DNA from: Pseudomonadota bacterium
GTDB taxonomy: Bacteria > Bdellovibrionota > Bdellovibrionia > Bdellovibrionales > Bdellovibrionaceae
Direction: 5' to 3'
DNA: 42,134 bases
NCBI GenBank assembly: GCA_021300175.1
Contig: JAJTIC010000012.1
Coordinates: forward strand, 1 to 42,134
Position 1 is the stretch's first letter; each line of letters opens with the position of its first letter. Shown in pieces: positions 20,714-26,915 of the stretch. The translations under genes were made by a program, and so were the position numbers. The notes beneath the pieces were generated by a model. It saw only the letters and a list, made by a program, of their open reading frames with translations, was not told where the DNA came from and searched no databases.

Positions 20714-21238
20714 ATGACCCTCTTACTCAAACAAATTTTTAATTTTTTTCGCCTCCTGAATAGCGATACAGGAACCAATCAGCTGGCGAGTGGTTTAGCT
20801 CTGGGACTTGTCTTAGGCTTTTCTCCGTTTCTCTCACTCCAAACTTTTCTAGTGCTTTTTATTTGTTTCTTTTTCCGAGTTCAATTGGGAGCTGCTTTTC
20901 TTTCAGCTTTCTTTTTTAAGTTCGTGGCATTTCTTATCGATCCTGCGAGTGATGCTCTTGGCAGAGCTGTTTTAGAGTCAGAATCTTTGCGGCCCCTTTG
21001 GGTCAGTCTCTATAACATGCCACTGGTTCCACTCACTCGGTTCAACAACTCCATCGTGATGGGATCTGGCCTGATTGGTCTTATCTTAGCAGTTCCTTTC
21101 TTTTTTATTTTTAAGAAATCTATTCTGAAATACCGACAGACCATCGTAGCCCAATACCAACAGTCCAAAATCTGGAAAGCATGGACGGCAACCACAATTT
21201 ACAAATGGTACACAAGTTACGAAAAACTTTACGGGTAG
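20714..21238 (+). CDS. TIGR03546 family membrane protein
   Basis: Small membrane protein of 174 aa with DUF2062-like character: a glycine- and leucine-rich LASGLALGLVLGFSPFLSLQ stretch and hydrophobic segments near 25-50, 55-75 and 115-135. A basic C-terminal tail (KYRQTIVAQYQQSKIWKAW) is probably cytoplasmic. Such proteins are known as TIGR03546 and are encoded next to TIGR03545 proteins, as here, 6 bases upstream. The function is unknown. A ribosome binding site (AAAGGA) lies just before the ATG. Confidence 0.72.
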   Translation: MTLLLKQIFNFFRLLNSDTGTNQLASGLALGLVLGFSPFLSLQTFLVLFICFFFRVQLGAAFLSAFFFKFVAFLIDPASDALGRAVLESESLRPLWVSLYNMPLVPLTRFNNSIVMGSGLIGLILAVPFFFIFKKSILKYRQTIVAQYQQSKIWKAWTATTIYKWYTSYEKLYG

Positions 21239-21244
21239 GACAAA

Positions 21245-23194
21245 ATGACAACTGCAAATCAAACACCAACTAAAAAAGCTAAAGGTCCCATTCGTTCGGA
21301 AGCTGTTGTTCCTTTCACCATTGTCCTCGCGCTCTTCATTACTTACTTCCACTTCTTTTTCGACTCTCACTTAAGAAGAGGTATGGAACTCGGCGGATAT
21401 TTTATTCTGGGAGCTGAAGTCAATGTGGCTCAAGTTGATTCTAGCTTCTTGAAAGGAACGCTGCGAATTCAAGGCATCCAAATCACCGATGCTGCCAAGC
21501 CAACACATAACCTCGTTGAAATTGGCGACGTTCGCTTTGGTGTCCTGTGGGACGGATTACTGCGAGCCCGCGTGGTCGTTGAAGAAATGGCCGTCGAGCA
21601 AATTAAAATTGGAACACAAAGAAAGTCTCCAGGAAAAGTGAAGCCCCCGGAAGAAAAAAAGGATGAGGGTCCTGGCGCTGTTGACCAACTGAAAGAGAAG
21701 GCCCTCAATAAAGTTGAAGAAAAATACGACGGGAATGTGCTCGGCGATCTTGCGGCCCTGCTATCAGGAGGATCTGCCAAAGAAATCCAAGGTGAAATCG
21801 AAGGAAATATCCAAGCCAAGAAGATGGTGACTGACCTTCAAGCAAGTCTCAAGGAAAAGCAAAAATCTTGGGAAGAGCGCCTCAAAAATTTGCCTAAGCC
21901 TAAAGAGGTCGAAGATCTTGGAAAACGACTTTCTCAAGTGAAAACGAAGGATTTCAAATCCCCTCAAGAGCTCGAGCAGTCGCTCAAACAAATTGATTCT
22001 ATTTTGAAAGAAGCTGATTCTAAATACAAAGCTGTCGACCAGACGGGAAAGGATCTGCGAAGCGAATTGAAAGCTTTCGAAGCAGAGCTTAAAAAAATCG
22101 AAGACCAAGTGAAAGCTGACATCAAAGAACTCGAGTCTCGGTTTAAAATTCCTTCACTAGATGCCCATTCTCTCTCCAGGGCTCTATTTGCCTCTTATTT
22201 GGATCCCTATTTAGCAAAAGTAAATTTCTATAAATCAGCATTTGAAAAATATGCGCCCCCCAATGTGGTCGCTAAAGTCAAAGGTCAACCGACGGGCGAT
22301 CCCGATTTGCAAATCCAACCTCGGCCCAGATCCCAAGGTACTTCTTACGAATTTGGCAGACCTGGCTCTTACCCTGTCTTTTGGATCAAAAAGATTTCAG
22401 TTTCTTCACAGGCTGGGGCATCACCAGATGCAGGCAATGTGGCAGGACAAATCCTCGATGTGACTAGCAATCAGCTTCTCACTAACAAACCCACCGTCGC
22501 AAAACTCAAAGGGGATTTCCCGAGTTTAGGTGTTGGCGGATTTAATACCGAACTCACTTTCGACAATCGAAAAGCAGAAAGCCTCATTCAATTTCTATTA
22601 AAAGTTACTAATTTTAGTATCCAAAAGAAGGAACTCCTTTCAAGCTCTGATGTAGGGATTGAGCTGTCGAAAAGTTCGGGCGAACTGACTACCGACTTGA
22701 AACTTGTGGACTACAAAAACTTAGACCTTTCTATCAATAATCGCTTCAATCAAAACGAATTCACAATCACCAGCAAAGAAAAAGTTGCCCGAGAAATGTT
22801 ATCGAGTGCTTTTGCGAGCCTTCCGACACTGACTTTAGACGTGAAAGGTCAAGGGCAGCTTCCAACTCCCAGGTTATCTGTAGATTCAAACGCAGGTCGA
22901 GAAATTGCCAGAGCTCTTGAAACTCAAATCAAAGGAAAGATCGCAGAAGCCAAAGCAAAGATTGAAAAATACGTTCAAGATCAAATCGGTGCAGAAAAAG
23001 CAAAGCTCGAAGCTGAGTTCAGCAAAATCAAATCCCAATTCGAAGGTGAAGTCGCCAAAGCCCAGTCTAAAATTGAAGCTGAAAAGAACAAAGCCAATGC
23101 TCAAGTGAATGCGGCTAAGAAAGATAGCGAAAATCAGCTCAAGCAAAAAGCTAACGAAAAACTCAAAGACCTTAAAAAGAAGTTTGGTTTCTAA
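21245..23194 (+). CDS. TIGR03545 family protein, AsmA-like membrane-anchored, coiled-coil rich
   Basis: Protein of 649 aa. One N-terminal span (about 20-38, VVPFTIVLALFITYFHFFF) is followed by an AsmA/TamB-like beta segment (VNVAQVDSSFLKGTLRIQGI, VLWDGLLRARVVVEEM). Next comes a charged alpha-helical region (about 180-310, Lys/Glu/Leu heptads), a central beta-rich part (about 370-560) and a Lys/Ala/Glu-rich coiled coil to the C-terminus (about 565-649). This layout fits a large periplasmic body tethered in the inner membrane. The family is uncharacterised. It pairs with the upstream TIGR03546 gene and is 3 bases from the following lipoprotein gene. Confidence 0.72.
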   Translation: MTTANQTPTKKAKGPIRSEAVVPFTIVLALFITYFHFFFDSHLRRGMELGGYFILGAEVNVAQVDSSFLKGTLRIQGIQITDAAKPTHNLVEIGDVRFGVLWDGLLRARVVVEEMAVEQIKIGTQRKSPGKVKPPEEKKDEGPGAVDQLKEKALNKVEEKYDGNVLGDLAALLSGGSAKEIQGEIEGNIQAKKMVTDLQASLKEKQKSWEERLKNLPKPKEVEDLGKRLSQVKTKDFKSPQELEQSLKQIDSILKEADSKYKAVDQTGKDLRSELKAFEAELKKIEDQVKADIKELESRFKIPSLDAHSLSRALFASYLDPYLAKVNFYKSAFEKYAPPNVVAKVKGQPTGDPDLQIQPRPRSQGTSYEFGRPGSYPVFWIKKISVSSQAGASPDAGNVAGQILDVTSNQLLTNKPTVAKLKGDFPSLGVGGFNTELTFDNRKAESLIQFLLKVTNFSIQKKELLSSSDVGIELSKSSGELTTDLKLVDYKNLDLSINNRFNQNEFTITSKEKVAREMLSSAFASLPTLTLDVKGQGQLPTPRLSVDSNAGREIARALETQIKGKIAEAKAKIEKYVQDQIGAEKAKLEAEFSKIKSQFEGEVAKAQSKIEAEKNKANAQVNAAKKDSENQLKQKANEKLKDLKKKFGF

Positions 23195-23197
23195 GTT

Positions 23198-23749
23198 ATG
23201 AAGTTTAATGACTTGTCTCATCTTTTCACTTTTGATTTTTGCAGGCCATCCGCATTACCACCACGTTCGCCTGCCTTGCTTGCCTCGGTCCTGATTTTCT
23301 CTGCTATGATTCTACTTTCTGGCTGTGCCACGCCTAAGAAATCTCGATTGGCGGCCACGACTCTTGCTTTTGCAGGAGGGGCTGTTATCGGCGCACAGAC
23401 TGCTCCCAAGGACGAACGTAAAGAACTTCACTCGATGTACTGGGCCGGTATCGCAGGCCTCACTGCTGCCGTTATTTCTAACTATATCTACAGCGAAGAA
23501 GATGAACTTCTGAAAGCTCGCCTGGAAGTCGAAAAACTGAAAGCCGAAATGGACCTTCTTCAGAACTCCAAGAAAATACTTATCAAAGAGGGCACCGGCT
23601 ACTTTCAAAATCCTCAAGGCGAACAGTTTTTTCAAAAAGGCAAAGCCAAATGGAGAATTTACGAAATTGATCAGTGGGTCAAAGATGGGCCTTATCGTTT
23701 GTACCATCAAGACAAACTGGTTGAGCTCTATCCCGAGGAAAAGAAATAA
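23198..23749 (+). CDS. probable lipoprotein with coiled-coil segment
   Basis: Predicted lipoprotein of 183 aa. After a long N-region, a hydrophobic segment ends in the lipobox LLSGC near residue 43, followed by ATPKK. A glycine/alanine-rich stretch (LAFAGGAVIGAQ), a second hydrophobic segment (WAGIAGLTAAVISNYIYS) and a Lys/Glu helix (EDELLKARLEVEKLKAEMDLLQ) come next. The C-terminus is a small domain (GTGYFQNPQGEQFFQKGKAKWRIYEIDQW). Internal ATGs at 23267 and beyond do not fit a better signal; ATG just before ILLSGC would be too short. No known family was recognised. It may work with its operon neighbours at the envelope. Confidence 0.65.
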   Translation: MKFNDLSHLFTFDFCRPSALPPRSPALLASVLIFSAMILLSGCATPKKSRLAATTLAFAGGAVIGAQTAPKDERKELHSMYWAGIAGLTAAVISNYIYSEEDELLKARLEVEKLKAEMDLLQNSKKILIKEGTGYFQNPQGEQFFQKGKAKWRIYEIDQWVKDGPYRLYHQDKLVELYPEEKK

Positions 23750-23751
23750 CT

Positions 23752-24744
23752 GTGAATTGGACTCTCGCTATCCAAAAACTTAAAGGAATCCCGAGGAACT
23801 CCATCCCGGTGCTTCTGATCCTGTTGATCATCTCTTTGACCTTTAATTTTTCTCAGTGGCTCAAAACGAAAGAACTCAAAATTCTCAACCAAAAATTAGT
23901 TACTTCCACCCAAAGCGAACGGGAACTGCCCTTCATTAGATTCTTTTTTGAAAACTATGCTTTGAATAGCTTACAAGGTAACTTCCAAAAACAACGAAGA
24001 CTTGCTGCTTTTGCTTCTCCGAAACTTCGAGAGCAAATTCTTGCGGATCTAGATCGCTTGGAATCAAGAGCCTCCGACTTCAAAGAATCACCCAATTTAT
24101 CTACAAAAATTGAGCTGAGCCGAGTTATCAAAAAAAGGAGCAATAACTATGAAGTAGATCTCGCCTCATATTCAGATCAAAAGGTCCTCCGTTATGGTTT
24201 TTCATTGGAGAAGAAATCAGACCCGCTTTCAGAGTTCCCTTATCAAATCAATCGTCTAGAATTTTTAAAATCTAAATCTTTAGATCAAAAATACTCAACC
24301 TCTCAGGAAGGCAATTCAAACAAGGATTTCTCTGATGAAATCTCTAAGAGTTTCCCAATCTCAGTGAATCAATTTTCTGTTTTTGAATTCACCTGCTCTA
24401 TAGAATCAGTCTCTGTGAATCCCAAAGAGTCATTGCAGTTTAAAATGTCAAATCTAGATGTGACACAGCTACAGCTCAGCCCTTCTCAAGCTTCTGTTGA
24501 TCAAGTGAGTGTGGACATTCACTGCCCTGAACGAAGCTACAATCTCAATTTAACTCTCTCTCAGAATGAGTATCTTCTTTACCTAAAAGTCAGTGCAGAC
24601 TTTCTTTCCCCTAAACACAATCGTCCACTCACTGGTAGTCCTGGACAAAATCAAAAGAACACTTTAAAATATAATCAGCACAAAATTGATTCTCAACTCG
24701 ATAAAAAAATCAAATCTGAACTTGGATTTATCATCGAGGATTAA
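23752..24744 (+). CDS. single-pass membrane protein with TraE/VirB8-like layout
   Basis: Protein of 330 aa, not firmly recognised. A short basic cytoplasmic start precedes one span near 19-36 (SIPVLLILLIISLTFNFS). About 120 residues follow whose order (helix with PFIRFFFENYALNS, SPKLREQILADLDRLESR, then alternating strands) resembles TraE/VirB8 proteins of type IV secretion. Residues about 205-290 form a further beta-rich part, with two cysteines (TCSIES and IHCPE) that could pair in the periplasm. The start is GTG at 23752, two bases after the lipoprotein stop. The VirB8-like reading is a pattern judgement only. Confidence 0.5.
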   Translation: MNWTLAIQKLKGIPRNSIPVLLILLIISLTFNFSQWLKTKELKILNQKLVTSTQSERELPFIRFFFENYALNSLQGNFQKQRRLAAFASPKLREQILADLDRLESRASDFKESPNLSTKIELSRVIKKRSNNYEVDLASYSDQKVLRYGFSLEKKSDPLSEFPYQINRLEFLKSKSLDQKYSTSQEGNSNKDFSDEISKSFPISVNQFSVFEFTCSIESVSVNPKESLQFKMSNLDVTQLQLSPSQASVDQVSVDIHCPERSYNLNLTLSQNEYLLYLKVSADFLSPKHNRPLTGSPGQNQKNTLKYNQHKIDSQLDKKIKSELGFIIED

Positions 24745-24753
24745 CTCCTCGAT
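24733..24753 (+). terminator. hairpin spanning the stop codon, possible terminator
   Basis: ATCGAGGA (24733-24740) and TCCTCGAT (24746-24753) form a perfect 8-bp stem around the loop TTAAC, which contains the TAA stop of the preceding gene. No T-run follows, so it is not a classical intrinsic terminator. It lies in the 34-base gap between convergent genes and could stop or stabilise either transcript. Confidence 0.4.
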
Positions 24754-24778
24754 AACTCTGAATGAACAGCGGTTCGGG

Positions 24779-26143
24779 TCACGAGTTGGTTCTCGCAACA
24801 GCAGGGCTTCCCACTGAAGGAAAAACTTTTCTTTTTAATGTGAATCCAAAAGTAGTTCCAAAGCCTTCAATCGAGCTCATCTCAATTTTGCCACCATAAG
24901 ATTCAATGAGCTGTTTAACCGTGTAAAGACCGAGACCATTCCCATCACTTTTGCCTCTTGTGAAGCCAAGATCAAAGATGCGGTCTTGCAGGTCATGAGG
25001 AATTCCACGCCCGTTGTCTACGACTTCAACATAGACATCGTCTCGCCTTTGGCGAAATGAAACTCTCACTTTCAAAATGGCCGATGAGCGTTCTGCCTGA
25101 CATGAGTTTTGAACGAGATTCAGAACAATCCGATAAATATCATGCGTCTCCATTTCATAATTCCCAGAGAAGTCTCGCCCAACCACTGTGAATTCAGACT
25201 TAGGATATCGAACAGCAAACTCCTCAATCAAGTTAGCCAAGACACTCTTAAGACTGATCCCTATGGACGGCCCATTAGTGTTTGCTTCGTTATGAATTGG
25301 ACTTCGAGAGCTGTTTTTCAAATCGCCAGATGATTTTCGCAACAGAGCTTTTGAGATGTCTTTAACCCGCTCGATAGCCGACTGAAGAACTCCAAGTTCT
25401 TTTGATCCCAAGTGTCCTTGAGCCGCAAGATCAGAGACGACGAGTAATGCAGACAAAGGAGACTGAATATCGTGTGCGAGTTGCCTTGCTTGAAGAACAT
25501 TCTGCCTTTCAAGAGCCAACATTTTCTCAGCTGTTAACTTTTGATACTCCTGTTGTTCCTTTTCTAGTTTTAATAAGGCCTCGTTCTTCAGTCGGACTGT
25601 CAAAATATTCAAAAGACCTAATGTCGCCAGCAAGATGGCCAGAAAGAGTGGCGAAGTAAAGGCCGCTCTCATCAACTTTTGAGAGTTCAAGCAATACTTC
25701 AGCTCAGCAATTCTCATAAGTCCCGAATGCAATGAAAAACTTTCAGGCGACTCACAACTCAAAGTATTCTGCCTTGGTAGCGAATAGTTGGCAGCTATGA
25801 CCTGATCCATTTTTTGAAGAGTTATTGGATAGACTACCGATGCAAAATGCAGTTCTAGAATTCCAAGGTAGGGACTGACTTCAAAGGCATTTTTAAGCTT
25901 TGTGACCACATCATTGAACTGAGAACTTTCAAGAAATAGCTTCCCACGAGACTCCATCAATAAATCTCTGGCAACAGAAGCCTCCCATCCTGAAAAATAC
26001 CGAATGATGACTTCCTGTTGATTCGACCTTAACTGAGAGAAACTCAGGAGATATCCAACGATGATCAGGCCGCCGAAAGCTAAAAGCCACCGAGGACCAA
26101 GCACAACATAAATGCCCTTCAGCCATCCCAAAATGCCCATCAC
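24779..26143 (-). CDS. orphan membrane sensor histidine kinase
   Basis: Sensor kinase of 454 aa. Span 1 lies near 17-35, a periplasmic sensor of about 125 residues follows, and span 2 lies near 164-183. A short coiled coil leads to the HisKA domain with H224 in QLAHDIQSPLSALL. The HATPase domain has LVQNSCQAE (N box), VVDNGRGIP (G1) and GNGLGLYTVKQLIESYGG (G2). The sensor is not recognised; it has cysteines at 130 and 151. No response regulator is adjacent. GTG at 26143 and ATG at 26140 are both possible starts; GAGGGG is 13 or more bases upstream. Confidence 0.85.
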   Translation of the reverse strand: MMGILGWLKGIYVVLGPRWLLAFGGLIIVGYLLSFSQLRSNQQEVIIRYFSGWEASVARDLLMESRGKLFLESSQFNDVVTKLKNAFEVSPYLGILELHFASVVYPITLQKMDQVIAANYSLPRQNTLSCESPESFSLHSGLMRIAELKYCLNSQKLMRAAFTSPLFLAILLATLGLLNILTVRLKNEALLKLEKEQQEYQKLTAEKMLALERQNVLQARQLAHDIQSPLSALLVVSDLAAQGHLGSKELGVLQSAIERVKDISKALLRKSSGDLKNSSRSPIHNEANTNGPSIGISLKSVLANLIEEFAVRYPKSEFTVVGRDFSGNYEMETHDIYRIVLNLVQNSCQAERSSAILKVRVSFRQRRDDVYVEVVDNGRGIPHDLQDRIFDLGFTRGKSDGNGLGLYTVKQLIESYGGKIEMSSIEGFGTTFGFTLKRKVFPSVGSPAVARTNS

Positions 26144-26177
26144 TCGCCATCATAAGCCCCTCAAGCATGGTTTAAAA

Positions 26178-26208
26178 CTGTCAGGATTCTGACAGGTAAT
26201 TCTTACCT
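26178..26208 (-). promoter_or_regulatory. two overlapping inverted repeats upstream of the kinase gene
   Basis: AGGTAA(26194-26199)-TTC-TTACCT(26203-26208) and CTGTCAG(26178-26184)-GATT-CTGACAG(26189-26195) are perfect palindromic pairs sharing two bases. Read on the minus strand, the second hairpin is followed by TTTT, so it could be a weak terminator after the TlpA gene or a leader hairpin or operator for the kinase, which starts 35 bases further on. Confidence 0.45.
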
Positions 26209-26351
26209 AGCAAAATGAGAACAGGTGCTTAGGATGCTCTTTGCACCCAATGAATCTGCTCTGAGTTTCGAAATTAAGTAACTCGCTAAATGAAATCAAC
26301 CTCAACCCAAATAAATGGGCAGCGTGCGCGTTAATCCTTATAAACCTGCAG

Positions 26352-26915
26352 TTAGGGCTTAAGCAATGACCTCATATAATCGAGGGCTTCTGGAGTCGCC
26401 CAATCAATGGAGCCAATGATTTTGCGAGCGAGCTTATGTTCTCGATCAGCAACGAACGACTCTGGCAGCCGATCAGCACTGTACATCGTCCCTAAGCTTC
26501 GATCATGGTCCCAAATCACATGAATATTGGGATTCTCCCCTTTGGGAAAAGCTTTCAGAAAGGATTGCATCTCCTCTTCTGAGCTATCCTGAGAAATAGC
26601 GATGAGCTGAACTTCGCCCTTCATCTCTTCGATCAATTTCACCATTGATGGAAATTCTTCCACGCAGGGCCCACACCAGGAGGCCCAAAAATTGACGATC
26701 ACTGGCTTCCCCTGGAACTGACTTAACTGAATCTTTTCTCCCCGAGTAGACACGCTCGAAAAGTCTGGCAGACCTTGCTTCTCCATGGATTCAATTAACT
26801 TCAGGCGGCGATCACCTTCTTCTGAAAGTGTAATTTTACCCCAGTACCCAAATAAAAAGAAAAATCCAACTGCGACAAGTGCTGTGGCTAAAAGAGCCTT
26901 TAAATAAATTTTCAT
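26352..26915 (-). CDS. TlpA/ResA-type membrane-anchored thioredoxin
   Basis: Thioredoxin-fold protein of 187 aa facing the periplasm. One N-terminal hydrophobic segment (about 4-24) lacks an obvious cleavage site, so it is probably an anchor. The redox centre is WCGPC (C81, C84) in FWASWCGPCVEEFPSM, and RLPESFV supplies the cis-proline loop. Family members reduce periplasmic disulfides, often in cytochrome c maturation; the client here is unknown. ATG 26915 is the start. It precedes the kinase gene by 208 bases on the same strand. Confidence 0.85.
   Translation of the reverse strand: MKIYLKALLATALVAVGFFFLFGYWGKITLSEEGDRRLKLIESMEKQGLPDFSSVSTRGEKIQLSQFQGKPVIVNFWASWCGPCVEEFPSMVKLIEEMKGEVQLIAISQDSSEEEMQSFLKAFPKGENPNIHVIWDHDRSLGTMYSADRLPESFVADREHKLARKIIGSIDWATPEALDYMRSLLKP

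Follow-up and report, generated by a model that had tools for sequence, protein, structure and literature searches.

In type IV secretion systems (T4SS), VirB8 and the N-terminal domain of VirB9 sit in the periplasm between the inner-membrane complex and the outer-membrane ring, and the C-terminal domain of VirB9 binds VirB7 in the outer ring. RcsF-IgaA-Rcs and NlpE-Cpx are lipoprotein-linked sensors of envelope stress, and TIGR03546-TIGR03545 is a long-catalogued, widespread membrane pair whose function is unknown. Against these systems we compared a row of four open reading frames (ORFs), orf1 to orf4, at positions 20714 to 24744 of a 42,134-nucleotide stretch of DNA (the window; contig JAJTIC010000012.1 of assembly GCA_021300175.1) from a Pseudomonadota bacterium of the family Bdellovibrionaceae. 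A sequence-only reading had taken the row for one undescribed trans-envelope assembly, perhaps for lipid transport or secretion. We found that the row is composed of two unrelated units: orf1-orf2 (unit 1) and orf3-orf4 with a histidine kinase (unit 2), and that unit 2 extends past the four ORFs on the minus strand to position 26143. An undescribed envelope module thus seems to exist, but as orf3, orf4 and the kinase and not as the four genes. The features of the locus are as follows:

20714-21238, plus strand: orf1, 174 amino acids (aa), TIGR03546/DUF2062 polytopic protein, unit 1
21245-23194, plus strand: orf2, 649 aa, TIGR03545, unit 1
23198-23749, plus strand: orf3, 183 aa, lipoprotein, unit 2
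23752-24744, plus strand: orf4, 330 aa, GTG start, VirB8-VirB9N fusion, unit 2
23905-24324, plus strand: VirB8-like (NTF2-like) domain of orf4, residues 52-191 (structural comparison)
24349-24600, plus strand: beta sandwich of orf4 resembling the VirB9 N-terminal domain, residues ~200-283, with C215 and C258 (Foldseek and structural comparison)
24779-26143, minus strand: sensor histidine kinase, belonging to unit 2 as its third gene (Pfam, gene neighbourhood, profile)
25595-26143, minus strand: membrane/periplasmic sensor part of the kinase, with C130 and C151 unchanged in all 21 aligned sequences (alignment)
23195-26351, no strand assigned: stretch from orf2 to the thioredoxin-like gene, 3157 bp (locus comparison)
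26352-26915: thioredoxin-like gene (labelled by eye, CGPC motif)

Based on profiles and predicted structure, orf4 is one in-frame protein in which a membrane-anchored VirB8-like domain is followed by a domain like the N-terminus of VirB9. Its model (predicted local distance difference test, pLDDT, 76; predicted template modelling score, pTM, 0.67) starts with a single membrane helix at the N-terminus, followed by a domain of alpha+beta type and a beta domain. Together with the structural comparison it bears out the earlier proposal of a single-pass protein with a VirB8-like layout and a beta-rich C-terminus with two cysteines. Beyond residue 283 the model holds only a low-confidence tail with one helix and no VirB9 C-terminal domain. 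The eight best Foldseek matches in the PDB were all T4SS core-complex entries, six of them at E<=0.001 and the others at 1.1e-3 and 3.0e-3. The beta domain matched core-complex chains of R388 (E 5.9e-5 to 1.4e-4), and the matched chains are, to judge from their entry titles, presumably of VirB9 type. A second structural comparison agreed: its top 14 rows were all T4SS or conjugation entries, the first unrelated row following at Z 5.8. In this comparison the VirB8-type rows cover approximately residues 51-191 and the VirB9-type rows end at 283-299; the VirB8-like domain aligned with Brucella VirB8 (5jbs_D) over 124 residues (Z 8.2, root-mean-square deviation, rmsd, 3.6), the VirB9-like domain with its counterparts over 85 residues (Z 8.4-8.5, rmsd 2.2).

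The same division emerged from profile-profile comparison. The profile built from an alignment of 27 fusions matched separate VirB8-type genes (prob 99.3, E 6.5e-21) as well as separate VirB9-type genes (prob 96.9, E 1.6e-10), whereas the controls, namely reversed profiles and alignments of the lipoprotein, TIGR03545, the kinase sensor, VirB4 and VirB10, gave prob 0.1-0.7. VirB10 was considered as a part of the fusion and rejected, as no profile-profile match was obtained. At three loci (L086, L088 and L089) the halves of orf4 match two neighbouring, overlapping genes, and L088 lies in the window's own genome, on another contig (C85). Both cysteines of the beta domain are kept in all 27 aligned fusions. 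A pair with the same spacing of 43 residues occurs in 4 of 14 T4SS copies, including the copy of the own genome, and thus a structural disulphide is likely.

The second component, orf3, carries the lipobox LLSGC (read from the sequence), and its prediction as a lipoprotein therefore stands. It also contains a Gly-zipper-like stretch (weak matches) and, at the C-terminus, a conserved motif built around a pair of tryptophans. A PDB sequence search with the lipoprotein profile gave 22 weak matches, none of which we take as a relative. A homologue was found in all 14 T4SS loci examined within the order, several of which had been picked for that match, and in one of three more distant T4SS loci, the other two stretches being cut by contig ends; its position in these elements is VirB7-like. 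Since such lipoproteins lie in local T4SS elements, orf3 probably stands in for VirB7. With the C-terminal domain of VirB9 missing from orf4, orf3 may consequently replace part of that domain too.

To follow this cassette across relatives, sets of 140 genomes of the order, 66 of the family and 368 of the phylum were used. In the searches for orf3, the kinase, its sensor domain and VirB4, and in the phylum-wide ones for the fusion and TIGR03545, the best-ranked candidates per genome were scored, and a part of the phylum-wide fusion-profile matches was examined. Within the order, the fusion profile matched 46 of 140 genomes; in 31 the gene is fused, and the others hold unfused T4SS-type genes or weak matches. 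Bdellovibrio, with 24 genomes in the set, accounts for 22 of the 31 carriers, the remaining nine being the genome of the window and eight further ones. Among all 31 are G016, where orf4 is spread over two overlapping frames, G019, where the locus lies on two contigs, and G068, where the first profile search saw the C-terminal half and the locus holds the full length. In contrast, G308 was not counted as a fusion, its ORF of 275 residues matching the profile over the VirB8 half only. The gene of G016 (locus L112, 7698 to ~8613) might be broken, recoded or the product of a sequencing error.

In all 31 carriers an orf3 homologue adjoins orf4, and in all 31 a histidine kinase with the same particular sensor domain adjoins this pair. 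The kinase is convergent with orf4 in 29 carriers; in the other two (G068 and G070) it precedes orf3 on the same strand. Five of the 29 convergent carriers have a gene of ~220 codons, probably encoding a membrane protein, between kinase and fusion (L079, 8910-9575; also L078, L094, L096 and L101). In G160, a more distant genome of the phylum, all three genes share a strand in the order kinase, orf3, orf4, with a gap of 14 bases at one junction and a one-base overlap at the other. The three genes thus keep together although their arrangement varies, and this linkage supports that the three products act together. The flanks of the cassette in Bdellovibrio are formed by genes of the isocitrate/isopropylmalate dehydrogenase, F420-ligase and Hsp33 types. 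Among them, a gene similar to F420-0:gamma-glutamyl ligase (PF01996) adjoins the cassette in many Bdellovibrio genomes, for example at L079 6779-7504.

The kinase itself was recognised in the window by HATPase_c (PF02518, E 8e-24), while Pfam gave no HisKA match; among 29 aligned kinases, at least 95% keep A-H-D. When the window kinase was used as query in 38 genomes, the linked kinase ranked first in 28 of the 30 other carriers among the matches listed; G070 is one where it was not. The sensor part is homologous across the loci, and its profile matches the cassette kinase in 31 of 31 carriers. Among the other 109 genomes of the order, matches were obtained in G071 (3e-12, the only one with E<1e-9) and in G045 (4e-4). 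The G045 match lies in a protein of FHA-type appearance (by eye); in G071 (L137, 4846-6299) the kinase is divided between two frames and neither orf3 nor orf4 adjoins it, a single case that a sequencing error could explain. The two Bdellovibrio genomes lacking orf3 and orf4 also lack the sensor domain. A PDB sequence search with the sensor profile delivered five matches, the best a designed repeat protein (E 1.3e-7), and no stretch passed alone; none is taken as a relative.

The bounds of unit 2 became visible in the relatives of the locus. Of 20 related TIGR03545 loci, 11 have a thioredoxin-like gene downstream of orf2 and convergent with it, and the other nine have none in the stretch. Six of these 11 show a gap of -4 to 133 bases without a called gene, and five have other genes there, so that the gap between orf2 and the thioredoxin-like gene is a variable spot. 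In the window it is 3157 bases long, and orf3, orf4 and the kinase are precisely the genes it contains. The empty site of the six relatives consequently marks the bounds of unit 2, and the row of four genes is accidental.

The cassette lacks the gene set of a functional T4SS. Among the 31 cassette loci, some of them cut by contig ends, we found no VirB6, VirB10 or pilin cluster gene, and a VirB4-type gene occurs at one. The kinase in turn is absent from all 14 T4SS loci of the order and from the three more distant loci. In a tree of 45 rows, one branch with support 100/98 splits the 31 fused sequences from the 14 T4SS copies. The tree is unrooted; it includes G160 and leaves out G016 as well as the T4SS loci L117 (no VirB9 called), L124 and L130. 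This split fits a single origin of the cassette. The window's genome holds both types of genes: the T4SS element on contig C85 (L088, 12242 bases) comprises VirB2-, VirB4-, VirB8-, VirB9- and VirB10-type genes together with an orf3-like lipoprotein. In L088 and L089 the VirB4-type ATPase exceeds its cut-off, and the TrbI/VirB10 matches stay below theirs; beyond this, weak TrbC/VirB2 and CagX/VirB9 matches were obtained in L088 and an integrase in L089. L086 has a coupling-protein match. An integrase-like ORF was also noticed by eye at the edge of L088. A lipoprotein-like protein with collagen-like repeats (L088, 8297-9424; Pfam E 0.003, below cut-off), a possible adhesin, heads several T4SS elements, and a member of the same loose protein cluster adjoins the kinase in L105 (4693, plus strand).

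Fold, gene company, co-occurrence, tree and empty site support a T4SS-derived cassette that has its own kinase and does not need a secretion system. As to its function, we see about an even chance that core parts of a T4SS were exapted as a trans-envelope sensing complex that feeds the kinase. In such a complex orf4, anchored in the inner membrane, would reach into the periplasm and meet the outer-membrane lipoprotein orf3 as the VirB8, VirB9 and VirB7 parts do in a T4SS, and both would form a bridge that has neither channel nor ATPase. Changes of this bridge, be it by envelope damage, membrane spacing or prey contact, might be read by the sensor domain of the kinase, which would pass the signal to a regulator encoded elsewhere. 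One might speculate further that the T4SS subunits, once cut off from secretion and fused, became in these predatory bacteria an antenna from inner to outer membrane that is read by the kinase, possibly for prey contact or entry, an idea we consider rather doubtful. To our knowledge, how Bdellovibrio senses prey contact and entry is still open.

Three other explanations of the cassette can be envisioned. First, its role might be structural, tethering one membrane to the other, with the kinase merely controlling its expression on an envelope signal. The same gene data apply, and VirB8, VirB9 and lipoprotein in a chain could cross the periplasm with no channel involved; on the other side, regulation alone would not need a dedicated sensor domain following the cassette so strictly. 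This last point is not decisive, and we consider the tether unlikely. Second, the VirB8, VirB9 and lipoprotein mimics might act as a decoy or exclusion device which jams an incoming or resident T4SS and whose expression the kinase controls. Related T4SS elements, some with integrases, do occur in some carrier genomes. The VirB4 profile matched 73 of 140 genomes of the order, including 14 of the 31 carriers. However, the proportion in the other genomes (59 of 109) is not clearly different (Fisher p 0.42), and no PADLOC family matched orf3 or orf4; we thus regard a decoy as distinctly improbable. Cassette and VirB4 show no tendency to occur together, and carriers are not enriched in VirB4. Anti-phage defence was discarded as well, PADLOC giving only weak matches, to the coiled coil of orf2 and to the catalytic part of the window kinase.

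Third, the cassette might be a T4SS remnant or accessory part that still works with T4SS parts encoded elsewhere in the genome, in line with its homology, with the element on contig C85 and with a VirB4-type gene near the cassette of G068. However, VirB4 goes unmatched at E<=1e-6 in 17 of the 31 carriers, several of which are single-contig genomes, one well-supported branch divides the fusions from the T4SS copies, and the cassette is kept in most of the Bdellovibrio genomes (22 of 24), all of which makes this very unlikely. Finally, the idea of the sequence-only reading, a single trans-envelope system made of all four genes and serving lipid transport or secretion, is hardly credible, and as a conserved system it is refuted. 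In its favour are the gaps of 6, 3 and 2 bases on the plus strand (correctly given as 2-6 bases) and the likeness to YdbH-YnbE that would arise if an AsmA-like protein had a lipoprotein as its partner. Against it stand an exact empty site and a gene order that is not conserved, as by eye orf4 adjoins TIGR03545 in 1 of 31 carriers and 60 of 61 family genomes have the TIGR03546-TIGR03545 pair without the fusion alongside.

Returning to the sensing complex and the T4SS descent it presumes, several observations weigh against them. Z values of 8 to 9 are near the warning range of the tool, though all top rows agree. The window's orf4 is divergent, with 15-23% identity to the other 26 fusions and an end branch of 2.35 in the tree, and it lacks an NPxG-like motif. 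NPxG is typical of VirB8; near forms occur in 26 of 31 fusions but in 7 of 14 T4SS copies, counted with slightly different patterns. No gathering-level Pfam match to VirB8 or VirB9 was obtained in the fusions or in the T4SS copies scanned, and the window's orf4 matched no family of Pfam or NCBIfam. Below threshold, Pfam VirB8 appeared in 1 of 27 fusions (E 0.058) and TcpC in five (best 0.004), and among three unfused VirB8 proteins NCBIfam found TraK of Bacteroidetes conjugative transposons in one (E 0.002). Searches of PDB sequences gave no match at E<=5 with the fusion profile (A2), none with the unfused VirB9 profile and one chance match with the unfused VirB8 profile. Because the tree is unrooted, the direction from T4SS genes to fusion is inferred. 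In addition, the VirB4 search scored the best <=8 candidates per genome, and G068 has a contig-cut VirB4-type gene ~5 kb downstream of its cassette (L125, 13165 to end), the sole case among 31. No response regulator was found among ten neighbouring and kinase proteins scanned, the genomes not having been searched for an orphan one. Lastly, the constant neighbourhood in Bdellovibrio alone could hold the genes together; since the arrangement changed in G068, G070 and G160, this explanation is disfavoured.

Unit 1 is of a different kind. Both family assignments of the sequence-only reading were confirmed, with orf1 scoring 183 bits against TIGR03546 (curated cut-off 79) and orf2 433 bits against TIGR03545 (cut-off 173) over profile positions 2-555 of 556. 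Within the family, TIGR03546 exceeds its cut-off in 61 of 66 genomes, and TIGR03545 is found in 63. The two adjoin on one strand within 300 bp in 61 of 61 genomes (compared by eye; the TIGR03545 piece of G019 is cut by a contig end). At E<=1e-10 TIGR03545 is present in 220 of the 368 phylum genomes, and at 12 of 20 related loci the rplQ/rpoA cluster is close to the pair (by gene cluster). Thus orf1 and orf2 are over-cut-off members of the NCBIfam pair in its usual order, and only their downstream neighbours differ.

The model of orf2 (pLDDT 74, pTM 0.51) runs from a membrane helix through a beta region, a coiled coil and a second beta region with long strands to a long C-terminal helix. Of the proposal of an AsmA-like protein with coiled coils, the coiled coil is therefore seen in the model, whereas the AsmA-like relation has weak profile matches and no significant Foldseek match. 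The family holds seven weak extra TIGR03545 profile matches (the G019 fragment aside), six of them within profile positions 7-110; a Pfam scan of four of the seven found TamB twice, DUF748/AsmA once and nothing in one. Among 21 TIGR03545 members, one matches DUF748 (8e-8) and one AsmA (2e-4), and the window's orf2 matched none of the AsmA, TamB, YhdP and DUF748 models. Foldseek gave no match at E<=0.001. The second structural comparison listed a chain of the LPD-3 complex, a lipid-bridge protein (Z 7.3 over 281 residues), and a Vps13 fragment (Z 5.8), and otherwise mostly BamA and other unrelated proteins. An AsmA-like fold is consequently not proven by structure. Nevertheless, the N-terminus of orf2 is probably related to AsmA/TamB, and orf1-orf2 is probably a periplasmic protein related to the AsmA superfamily with a small inner-membrane partner, plausibly involved in the movement of lipids between the membranes. 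With AsmA, TamB, YhdP and YdbH, orf2 shares the N-terminal membrane helix and long beta strands, and the weak N-terminal matches of the TIGR03545 profile include TamB and DUF748/AsmA proteins; orf2 differs by the long coiled coil between two beta regions and by the long terminal helix.

In the open-access literature we found no description of the cassette of orf3, orf4 and kinase, and a search there for a VirB8-VirB9 fusion in Bdellovibrio found nothing. TIGR03545 turned up in one paper and DUF2062 in four, three of which by their titles deal with the Brucella T4SS. PMC3539863 mentions elements like integrative and conjugative elements in Bdellovibrio, and a search of its text for VirB, TraE and type IV secretion found nothing.

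Like a T4SS with its VirB8 (TraE, TrwG), VirB9 (TraK, TrwF, DotH, CagX) and VirB7 (TraV, TrwH) proteins, unit 2 has both the VirB8 and the VirB9 fold, in the order of the separate genes. In contrast to a T4SS, the two are fused, VirB9 is represented by its N-terminal domain only and a kinase adjoins. Kept in 22 of 24 Bdellovibrio genomes and tied to its kinase in 31 of 31 carriers, the cassette is a compact candidate for an envelope sensor, and if this holds true, core parts of a secretion system would be used for signalling without secretion. With RcsF-IgaA-Rcs and NlpE-Cpx it would share an outer-membrane lipoprotein tied to a sensor kinase, a likeness of arrangement, while the linker of the cassette consists of T4SS-type parts.

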